A DNA stretch of 64,000 bases. Source: Burkholderiaceae bacterium. Its GTDB lineage: Bacteria > Pseudomonadota > Gammaproteobacteria > Burkholderiales > Burkholderiaceae_C. The translations under genes and the position numbers were made by a program. The DNA is taken from the NCBI GenBank assembly GCA_004323695.1, contig SCRU01000150.1, positions 1 through 64,000 of the forward strand. The letters are read 5' to 3'. Shown here piece after piece: positions 61,661 through 64,000 of this stretch. The notes beneath the pieces were generated by a model. It was given only the letters and a program-made list of their open reading frames with translations. It made no database searches and was not told the origin of the DNA. The stretch's first letter is position 1. Each line of letters begins with the position of its first letter.

Positions 61661-61694
61661 GGCAAAAAGAGCAGCTCAAGCTGCTCTTTTTGCC
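61661..61694. terminator. Near-perfect 34-bp palindromic, likely bidirectional terminator
   Basis: GGCAAAAAGAGCAGCT-CA-AGCTGCTCTTTTTGCC between ffs (+) and the convergent DUF1839 operon (-). Confidence 0.9.
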
Positions 61695-61772: not shown

Positions 61773-62774
61773 CTACAAACCCGGCCGGGACAAACCATCC
61801 GCCAGGAGGTTCATGCCACGATCCCAAGCCTGCTCCATCTCCGAGAACAGTGGCACTGCATCCAGCGGACGCCCCGAGTTGACGGCGCGGGCGCCCTTGA
61901 GAATGAGGGCCTTGTTGCCCTGGGCAATGATGTCGAAGCAGTCAGCGACAGCCGCCAAATCAGCGTGACCGAACCCCGCTTGCCAGCGCAGGTTGGCCGC
62001 AGCCAGGTCAAAGGCCGCGCCCGCCTGCCGGATGGTCGCAAAGGCCCATGCGTGGTAGTGAAGCAGGCCGCTGGCCTGCAGCTCGGGCAAATCCCGCGCA
62101 AAACGCTCCCCAAACCGCCGCAATGGGTTGGTTCCGGGTCGCCGCTCAAAGTGGCGCCGAAGCAGTTCGAACGAACAGGTGGCCAACTCCGCCGGAGGGC
62201 GCCTTCGAATTTTGTCGATACGGACCAGTTCCGCGAACAACGGCAAAAAAGCCGGATCCGGGTCGGCGCCTATCCGAAACAGCTGTGCGAAGTCTTCATC
62301 CGCGAGCTCAAAGTAGCCGGCGTTGTGAAAATAGCCCAACCGGCGCGCCCGCAGATCCAGGCTGGCGAGCACGATCGTGGTCTTGGTGTGCTTGTTCCGG
62401 TAGTCGGTGCCCGCGGTATCGGGCAGCCAGAATGCATCGGCCTCGGTGCTGATCAATTTGCCGGCACTCAGATGCTCCACGGCATGGTCGATCAAGGGGC
62501 GCCAAACCGTCAGTTCCTGAACATCGACGCCATACAGTTCGTACAGTTCCTCGTGCGACGGTTTGAAGAATGTCCATTGATCGTCCTCGAAATCCACGGC
62601 GACGGTAAATGGCAGCATCGCAAGCGGTTCCTGCCCGAGCGCATGGAGCAGTTCGATCCAGATGTCTCCGTAGCAGTTTTTCTCGGTCCAGACGGCTTCC
62701 TCACCGTGCAGGCGGTGTCGCTGATACCCGTTCGCGGCCAGACCGGGCAGGACGTCGATACGGCTCACGGCCAA
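61773..62774 (-). CDS. DUF1839 family protein
   Basis: 333 aa; HALGQEPLAMLPFTVAVDFEDDQWTFFKPSHEELYELYGVDVQELTVWRPL; overlaps the aaRS-like ligase gene by 10 bp. Confidence 0.8.
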   Translation of the reverse strand: MAVSRIDVLPGLAANGYQRHRLHGEEAVWTEKNCYGDIWIELLHALGQEPLAMLPFTVAVDFEDDQWTFFKPSHEELYELYGVDVQELTVWRPLIDHAVEHLSAGKLISTEADAFWLPDTAGTDYRNKHTKTTIVLASLDLRARRLGYFHNAGYFELADEDFAQLFRIGADPDPAFLPLFAELVRIDKIRRRPPAELATCSFELLRRHFERRPGTNPLRRFGERFARDLPELQASGLLHYHAWAFATIRQAGAAFDLAAANLRWQAGFGHADLAAVADCFDIIAQGNKALILKGARAVNSGRPLDAVPLFSEMEQAWDRGMNLLADGLSRPGL

Positions 62775-63676
62775 AGCTGCGCGCGCACGTCGGCGGGCCA
62801 GCGCTCGGGGTCGAAACCGTGTGTCTTGATGAGCGCCAGCGTCACGCGCTCCATGCCGAAACCGAGGCAGGCGGTATGCGCGACGGATTCATCGGCATTG
62901 CGAATCCGGAACTTGGAGGTGAAGTAATCCTGATGCCAATTGAATGAGCAAATCGCGGTGGGTTTGTCCAGCGAAATGACCGGAACCAGGATTTCAAACT
63001 TCAGGCGCTGGTCCAGTTGATTTGCCGCCAGCATCTTGCCGGCCCGCCCGAAAAATGGATCTGCCGCGAGATCGCTTTGCGCTTGCAGGCCCAATCCCTT
63101 CAGCAGCGCCAGCCCACGCTGCAACCACGCATCACGCCAGGCTACGACATCATCAGGCCGTCCCATGCGGATGAATTCGCGCATGCGAAACGACTGCAGC
63201 CGCGTGGGTTCATCCGACGGCTCATGGCGATACACCCACCCCAGCAATGTCAGCAGGCGTCCCGGCGCGGGCAACAGGCCGCTGAAGGTCGGGTAAACCG
63301 GATAACAGGCCGCCGGCGCGAGCATGACTTCAGTCATGTCGAGCAGGTCTTCCCAGCGCTCGCCGTCATTGACCCGGGCCGATAACTCCCTTGCCTTGGC
63401 CTCATTGCCGAAGAAACTGTGCACCGACCCTGCCAGTTGCGGGAACCGGGTCATGTAGGTCACTTCATCCAGCAGGGCACGCGGCAGGATAGGTGGAAAC
63501 AGCACTTCCTCGGCGCCATCAGGTTCGGATATCCGGCCCACCAGATCGTCGAAGCGCCGCAGGATATCCTCGAAAACGGCACCTCGGCCGTACCCTCCCT
63601 TGACCCCCGTGGGAATGATCAAGCCATGCTCTACCAGGCCAGCATAAAAGGAATCAATGTCGTAGGTCATCGTCAT
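62765..63676 (-). CDS. Amino acid--[acyl-carrier-protein] ligase, atypical SerRS-like catalytic domain without tRNA-binding arm
   Basis: 303 aa; motif 2-like VYRHEPSDEPTRLQSFRMREFIRMG and motif 3-like CLGFGMERVTLAL; putative Zn ligands C124, E167, C270. Confidence 0.85.
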   Translation of the reverse strand: MTMTYDIDSFYAGLVEHGLIIPTGVKGGYGRGAVFEDILRRFDDLVGRISEPDGAEEVLFPPILPRALLDEVTYMTRFPQLAGSVHSFFGNEAKARELSARVNDGERWEDLLDMTEVMLAPAACYPVYPTFSGLLPAPGRLLTLLGWVYRHEPSDEPTRLQSFRMREFIRMGRPDDVVAWRDAWLQRGLALLKGLGLQAQSDLAADPFFGRAGKMLAANQLDQRLKFEILVPVISLDKPTAICSFNWHQDYFTSKFRIRNADESVAHTACLGFGMERVTLALIKTHGFDPERWPADVRAQLWP

Positions 63677-64000
63677 GGCGTGTCCTTGAAAACCAGCAAC
63701 ATGGATGCGCTTTTCGCGGCGATTCGATCGTTCGAAATCATCAGCGACGCCGACAAGGAATCGCGGTATTGGCGCCCGAGGCTGAAGGGGCTGTCATTCT
63801 TGTATCCCAGAATGCCGACAATCTGCAGTGCGCGATGAACAATCTGCGGCACGGCCTCCGAGCAGGACATCTTCAGGTTATTCAGCCGCAATGCCCATCC
63901 GATGGTGGAGAGTGCCTCCCGGCCAGCCTCGCCCTCGCCCAGCGCATCAAAATCCTGAGCCGCCGACTGCCAGTTTTGCTTCATGGCTTGCAGTTGCACG
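63673..64000 (-). CDS. Acyl-CoA dehydrogenase-family protein, C-terminal part (runs off the window)
   Basis: ALSTIGWALRLNNLKMSCSEAVPQIVHRALQIVGILGYKNDSPFSLGRQYRDSLSASLMISNDRI; ATGA overlap with the ligase gene. Confidence 0.7.
   Translation of the reverse strand, partial: VQLQAMKQNWQSAAQDFDALGEGEAGREALSTIGWALRLNNLKMSCSEAVPQIVHRALQIVGILGYKNDSPFSLGRQYRDSLSASLMISNDRIAAKSASMLLVFKDTP

Follow-up and report, generated by a model that had tools for sequence, protein, structure and literature searches.

A conserved gene cluster predicted to encode a carrier-protein-dependent aminoacylation pathway, with DUF1839 as its putative aminoacyltransferase

Amino acid:[carrier protein] ligases were reportedly shown in 2010 to bring amino acids out of the translation toolbox and onto carrier proteins. 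A 2022 review gives their specificity as glycine or alanine and still calls their biological role unknown (PMC9437257). The closest described systems are those of Bradyrhizobium (Bll0957, with an acyl-CoA dehydrogenase gene as the next number, bll0958; PMC10888616) and Agrobacterium (Atu2573-Atu2571). In a note added in proof, Iyer et al. described the same neighbourhood in 2010, noticed a linked glycosidase and predicted that the open reading frame (ORF) Atu2574 links an amino acid by an amide bond to an amino sugar of the cell surface (PMC2922099); judging from the gene order, we infer that Atu2574 is the DUF1839 gene. DUF1839 was placed among the papain-like proteins by a 2023 survey, whose guess was acyl-CoA-dependent glycan processing (PMC10318531), and within the open-access literature searched it is mentioned by one paper only. 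Here, we describe a related locus at the right-hand end of the window, that is, the whole 64,000-nucleotide stretch analysed, which is the start of the 128-kb contig SCRU01000150.1 of a Burkholderiaceae bacterium (assembly GCA_004323695.1); genes past position 64,000 are given in window numbering. The locus brings together genes for a DUF1839 protein, a ligase, a flavoprotein of acyl-CoA dehydrogenase (ACAD) fold, a carrier protein, an AcpS-type phosphopantetheinyl transferase, a GH2 glycosidase and a double alpha/beta hydrolase. From gene content, conservation, co-occurrence and predicted fold, we propose, with a probability of about 0.6, that this cluster is a stand-alone carrier-protein-dependent aminoacylation pathway in which DUF1839 would pass the aminoacyl group to an amine.

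By its sequence, the middle gene of the three at the window edge encodes a genuine member of the amino acid:[carrier protein] ligases, whose loading activity is predicted. Indeed, the protein scores 388 bits to NF005479, ‘amino acid--[acyl-carrier-protein] ligase’ (cut-off 357), and its best solved relatives are the crystallised Bradyrhizobium enzymes (44% identity over 276 aligned positions with the PDB 4h2w chain). Class II motif 2 starts at residue 150 and motif 3 at residue 272, while the Zn ligands C124/E167/C270 correspond to C151/E196/C299 in the crystallised chain and are conserved without exception in 84 relatives. A first-pass annotation made from the letters of the window had already named this ligase, both motifs, the same three Zn ligands and the missing tRNA-binding arm; the family score and the crystallised relative uphold the identity, the alignment the motifs and ligands, and the 303-aa architecture the lack of the arm. 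Compared to the Bradyrhizobium and Agrobacterium systems, the cluster thus has a similar ligase with the same Zn ligands and a carrier homologous to Atu2571. It also holds DUF1839, GH2, AcpS and the double hydrolase, whereas four ligase loci described below (L108-L111) are without DUF1839 and GH2. Note that one locus (L064:394-2235) carries two tandem ligase genes upstream of a single DUF1839 gene, which possibly correspond to two amino acid specificities. In addition, other NF005479 matches of ~150 bits, such as L112:9311-10609, form a divergent and longer ligase-like family (about 400-480 aa) in several uncultured lineages; in L112, the one such locus read, the remaining cluster genes were not found near the ligase-like gene.

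The gene directly downstream of the ligase encodes a DUF1839 protein, which was modelled with AlphaFold2 on a 73-sequence alignment (pLDDT 93.6, pTM 0.91), giving a predicted architecture of a papain-like core followed by a C-terminal helical domain. When this model was compared with the PDB by Foldseek, 18 matches fell below an E-value of 1e-3, all of them to AziU3/U2, CtaG or CcbD (E 5e-7 to 7e-4, TM 0.51-0.60) and extending over 326-368 alignment columns, i.e., nearly the whole chain; the next match was a cysteine protease with an E-value of 0.47. AziU3/U2 ranked at the top, and CcbD had the higher TM. Cys34, which opens a core helix of the model (residues 34-45), is invariant in 92/92 relatives together with His129, Lys131 and His150, and residue 133 is always Thr or Ser; the 2023 survey assigned the triad as C-(T/S)-H (PMC10318531). 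On the basis of the model, DUF1839 is most likely a papain-fold, carrier-dependent aminoacyltransferase, which would take the aminoacyl group from the carrier onto Cys34 and then hand it to an amine, perhaps that of a sugar. The role of transferase, one of the two that the first-pass annotation had proposed for DUF1839, is therefore supported by the predicted fold matches.

The enzymes matched by the model can be compared with DUF1839 one by one. In celesticetin biosynthesis, CcbD takes carrier-bound proline onto its catalytic Cys and then couples this proline to a thiooctose at its amino group, and it binds the carrier through arginines in its C-terminal part (PMC12945683). CcbD and LmbD (lincosamide synthetase) have in common with DUF1839 the predicted fold over nearly the whole chain and the catalytic Cys, and the donor (a carrier-bound amino acid) and acceptor (an amino sugar) of CcbD are those that we propose for DUF1839. 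In contrast, the CcbD triad is Cys-His-Glu, its loader is an adenylation domain, and it displays no detectable sequence similarity to DUF1839. CtaG, from the closthioamide pathway, is described as a peptidyl transferase that transfers carrier-bound PHBA to a peptide attached to a second carrier (PMC6772006); the predicted fold and the carrier-bound donor are alike, but the acceptor of CtaG is another carrier-bound peptide, and the titles of its PDB entries suggest that C11, H128 and D144 are the active-site residues that were mutated. As a further example of papain-like acyltransferases, BtrH of butirosin biosynthesis is an acyl carrier protein:aminoglycoside acyltransferase (PMC10318531), but its family PF14399 is not matched by DUF1839.

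The cluster is real and conserved, well above chance. A genome scan yielded 341 DUF1839 relatives, of which the best 80 were kept as loci, and their gene content was read by tblastn. Among the 39 full loci (those with 9 kb or more on each side), ligase, carrier and GH2 genes were each found in 38, ACAD in 37, AcpS in 33 and the hydrolase in 30, and in 72/75 loci the gene immediately upstream of DUF1839 is that of the ligase. The hosts of the kept loci are Burkholderiales, Gammaproteobacteria and Myxococcota. Annotated plasmids extend this range to Alphaproteobacteria (Shinella, Rhizobium, Azospirillum) and also include those of Burkholderiaceae; their gene order is carrier - ACAD - ligase - DUF1839 - GH2 (the GH2 of Azospirillum being detected by tblastn only). 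In a sample of 398 Pseudomonadota genomes, DUF1839 occurred in 16 and a full-score ligase in 28, and all 16 were among the 28; in the class sample, the ligase was present in three of the four DUF1839 genomes, and 5/101 near relatives had DUF1839. Distance correlations with DUF1839 (rho of 0.70 for the ligase, 0.83 for ACAD and 0.82 for GH2) are uncorrected for species phylogeny and were given no weight. Four Ramlibacter-type genomes at first seemed to lack the ligase, but the gene was found elsewhere in each of them. Two other loci (L009:6593-13352 and L103:8614-15596) contain the carrier, ACAD, DUF1839, GH2 and hydrolase genes; no ligase match was obtained anywhere in either genome, and no adjacent gene was recognised as a ligase replacement. 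In Rhizobium sp. NLR16a (L093:9549-12375), the cluster adjoins EF-P, EpmA and a lysine-2,3-aminomutase-like gene; this proximity to another aminoacylation system derived from a tRNA synthetase is probably a coincidence.

Regarding the gene layout (Table 1), the three overlapping minus-strand genes reported by the first-pass annotation were confirmed as ORFs, with overlaps of 10 and 4 bases. That annotation had also expected a carrier gene just right of the window, where it was indeed found. The only PDB relatives of this carrier below an E-value of 1e-3 are Atu2571 (2jq4) and the aminoacyl carrier co-crystallised with the ligase (4h2w_C), and its serine is invariant (80/80). Since the carrier gene sits in a plus-strand unit with the order AcpS - carrier - GH2 - alpha/beta hydrolase, the cluster consists of two divergent transcription units instead of the single operon formerly assumed, and it includes four further conserved genes. 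The contig holds the whole ACAD gene, whose ORF extends beyond the window edge to 64947 (first start codon), and the disorder predicted by AlphaFold2 for residues 1-33 suggests a translation start near 64863. In GH2, both catalytic residues are kept, i.e., the acid/base E440 in 74/78 sequences (Asp in the other 4) and the nucleophile E521 in 78/78. The hydrolase (L003:7355-9193) resembles a fusion of the exosortase A-associated hydrolases TIGR03101 and TIGR03100, both below cut-off; the nucleophile Cys413 of its C-terminal half is invariant (57/57), and its N-terminal half is presumably dead because the nucleophile position is occupied by Arg or Gly. In the window, the neighbours of the cluster are of housekeeping type, namely dnaX, recR and a flavoprotein gene. 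A 34-base stretch (61661-61694) lying between the genes of DUF1839 and cytochrome b561, which converge, matches its own opposite strand at 94% and is likely a two-way terminator.

Table 1. Genes of the cluster in window numbering, with strand and family evidence
Feature	Position	Strand	Evidence or remark
DUF1839 protein, 333 aa	61773..62774	-	PF08893, E 2e-100
Amino acid:[carrier protein] ligase, 303 aa, class II aminoacyl-tRNA synthetase catalytic core of atypical SerRS type	62765..63676	-	NF005479
ACAD-fold flavoprotein, C-terminal part in window	63673..64000 (ORF 63673-63999)	-	Acyl-CoA dehydrogenase C-terminal domain (Pfam/NCBIfam)
AcpS-type phosphopantetheinyl transferase	65032-65493	+	Beyond window
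Carrier protein	65504-65761	+	NF005480; beyond window
GH2 glycosidase	65758-68310	+	Beyond window
Double (fused) alpha/beta hydrolase	68354-70192	+	Beyond window

The ACAD protein has the fold and Pfam domains of acyl-CoA dehydrogenases, but lacks their canonical catalytic glutamate. Indeed, the Glu position of short- and medium-chain acyl-CoA dehydrogenases (SCAD and MCAD), located by alignment to SCAD, is Ile or Val in 80/80 sequences, and at what we take to be the catalytic Glu position of isovaleryl-CoA dehydrogenase (IVD) no Glu was found either (Ser in 74/80); a simple alpha,beta-dehydrogenation therefore appears unlikely. The nearest structures of its model are dehydrogenases and monooxygenases ranked together, which does not settle the choice between both, and the acyl-ACP dehydrogenase TcsD has the best TM among the matches listed. 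Since its best sequence match is DnmZ, a nitrososynthase-type protein, and since a flavin reductase gene adjoins a few clusters, oxygenation seems more likely than ordinary dehydrogenation. A supposed loss of the ACAD gene in one genome (L012) was discarded, as a copy of the same glutamate-free kind is present elsewhere in that genome.

The way in which the genes separate suggests how the work would be divided. In two Ramlibacter-type genomes (L101 and L102), the ligase, ACAD, AcpS, carrier and hydrolase genes lie apart from those of DUF1839 and GH2, and the four ligase loci without DUF1839 (L108-L111) keep the ligase and a glutamate-free ACAD, the carrier being found in one of them (L111). 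From these split sets and DUF1839-less loci, we infer that ACAD acts on the carrier-bound amino acid, and DUF1839 and GH2 on the acceptor. The oxidation of a carrier-bound intermediate by ACAD, as first annotated, thus remains plausible because ligase and ACAD persist without DUF1839, but hardly as the classical reaction, given the missing glutamate. Note that L109 (7197-11689) adjoins a homoserine O-succinyltransferase and a pyridoxal phosphate (PLP) enzyme of Cys/Met metabolism, with a phosphoadenosine phosphosulfate (PAPS) reductase near, and that a PLP enzyme of Cys/Met metabolism also lies near L111 (5312-10321); by their gene content, L108-L111 may represent a second kind of pathway built on such a ligase, two of them in a sulfur/homoserine context.

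On the acceptor side, several clusters lie near genes for polysaccharide export, sugar transferase, WecG and UDP-glucose dehydrogenase, and sugar O-acyltransferase-type genes adjoin several. Circumstantial evidence, namely the GH2 gene, these glycan-gene neighbours and the amino-sugar acceptor of CcbD, points tentatively to a sugar as the acceptor, at somewhat less than even odds. Instead of the small aminoacyl-derived product proposed at first, the glycosidase, the polysaccharide neighbours in other genomes and the CcbD-like fold suggest that the amino acid would be attached to an amine, which may be that of a sugar.

Altogether, the proposed pathway would begin with the AcpS-type enzyme, which, as expected from its family, would put phosphopantetheine on the carrier serine. 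The ligase, derived from an aminoacyl-tRNA synthetase and closely homologous to enzymes proven in vitro, would then use ATP to activate a small amino acid (glycine or alanine by homology) and load it onto the carrier thiol, where the ACAD-fold flavoprotein might modify it, by oxygenation rather than dehydrogenation. Considering the predicted fold and the invariant residues, DUF1839 would accept the aminoacyl group on Cys34 and hand it to an amine, thus forming an amide, as CcbD does in celesticetin biosynthesis. In the weakest step, suggested by gene content, the acceptor may be an amino sugar or glycan intermediate, and GH2 and the Cys-type alpha/beta hydrolase may process this acceptor or edit mischarged carrier. 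The overall logic would parallel that of the lincosamide synthetase and of Dlt, the D-alanylation of teichoic acids, with a synthetase-derived ligase in place of the adenylation domain. Like the pathway proposed here, Dlt places an amino acid on a dedicated carrier and then on an envelope polymer, but DltA is an adenylation-domain enzyme, membrane proteins carry out the transfer, and an ester bond is formed; the loader of the present cluster is a class II aminoacyl-tRNA synthetase core and not a DltA-type enzyme.

Several observations weigh against this pathway. The top fold match, AziU3/U2, belongs to a natural-product pathway and its chemistry differs from CcbD-type transfer, so that the fold does not fix the reaction. 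The fold matches reach a TM of only 0.5-0.6 with root-mean-square deviations of 5.6-7.4, and a DUF1839 sequence profile search of the PDB found no relative; the relation between DUF1839 and CcbD is for these reasons structural only, and DUF1839 would work like CcbD without being a member of its family. The order of the triad is also non-canonical, as Thr/Ser takes the place of the His and His that of the acid (PMC10318531). Moreover, DUF1839 can persist without the ligase, as seen in L009 and L103, the nearest structures of ACAD include both dehydrogenases and monooxygenases, and the genes that flank the cluster in the window are housekeeping rather than glycan genes, although the latter neither strengthens nor weakens the idea of a sugar acceptor. 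The tRNA-charging activity that the relationship of the ligase to archaeal-type SerRS (NF002120, a weaker match of 71 bits) might evoke is extremely improbable and was ruled out on architecture: the tRNA-binding arm is absent, the best family is that of carrier-protein ligases, and dedicated carrier and phosphopantetheinyl transferase genes are close by.

The cluster could instead make a diffusible small molecule, DUF1839 joining a carrier-bound and possibly oxidised amino acid to a soluble amine, with the glycan genes nearby by chance. Such a product would fit the natural-product pathways of CcbD, CtaG and AziU3/U2, the patchy distribution of DUF1839 among near relatives and in the phylum, and the housekeeping flanks; it appears unlikely, though not negligible, since GH2 accompanies 38/39 full loci with both catalytic carboxylates kept, since no exporter or resistance gene was found among the annotated recurrent neighbours, and since genes for polysaccharide export, sugar transferase and O-acyltransferase recur there. 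A Cys nucleophile occurs also in acyl-transferring members of the alpha/beta hydrolase fold, and the invariant Cys of the C-terminal half could thus belong to the true acyltransferase (unless this is encoded elsewhere), DUF1839 being then a carrier-clearing enzyme, either a hydrolase or an editing thioesterase. We regard this exchange of roles as quite improbable: papain-fold enzymes are mostly hydrolases (PMC10318531), but the best fold matches of DUF1839 are condensing enzymes, ordinary cysteine proteases scoring far weaker, and the hydrolase was not found in 9/39 full loci, whereas DUF1839 and the ligase are together in 38. Slightly more doubtful still is the idea that ACAD forms the key product, an oxidised amino acid, on the carrier, with DUF1839 performing a non-transfer tailoring like AziU3/U2. 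The rank of AziU3/U2, the ACAD family retained in ligase loci read without DUF1839 and the flavin reductase neighbours speak for it; however, the rank is not decisive because the scores of AziU3/U2, CcbD and CtaG span only about three orders of magnitude, with CcbD the higher in TM, and GH2 would be left unexplained.

We emphasize that the idea of amide ligation is not new, since Iyer et al. predicted amide formation by the linked ORF. Their note gave no fold, residue or mechanism for this ORF, for which a carrier-dependent condensing fold is predicted here. What our analysis adds is the evidence from the predicted fold, the connection to condensing enzymes that depend on carriers and the residue tests. 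It also supplies the full set of seven genes, AcpS included, the counts of co-occurrence and the finding that ACAD lacks the catalytic glutamate. A gene that almost always travels with one ligase class thereby receives a predicted fold and a testable mechanism, with a defined nucleophile (Cys34), a defined donor (the aminoacyl-carrier) and a short list of acceptors, and the proposal offers a testable answer to where the amino acid loaded by the ligase goes. More speculatively, and with more doubt than confidence on our part, DUF1839 might found a widespread family of carrier-dependent aminoacyltransferases that put oxidised glycine or alanine on an amino sugar of an envelope glycan, as a Gram-negative and amide-forming counterpart of Dlt with a tRNA-synthetase-derived ligase. 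The CcbD fold was once described as being without database relatives (PMC4351081); our results suggest that it is spread across many proteobacterial and myxobacterial genomes.
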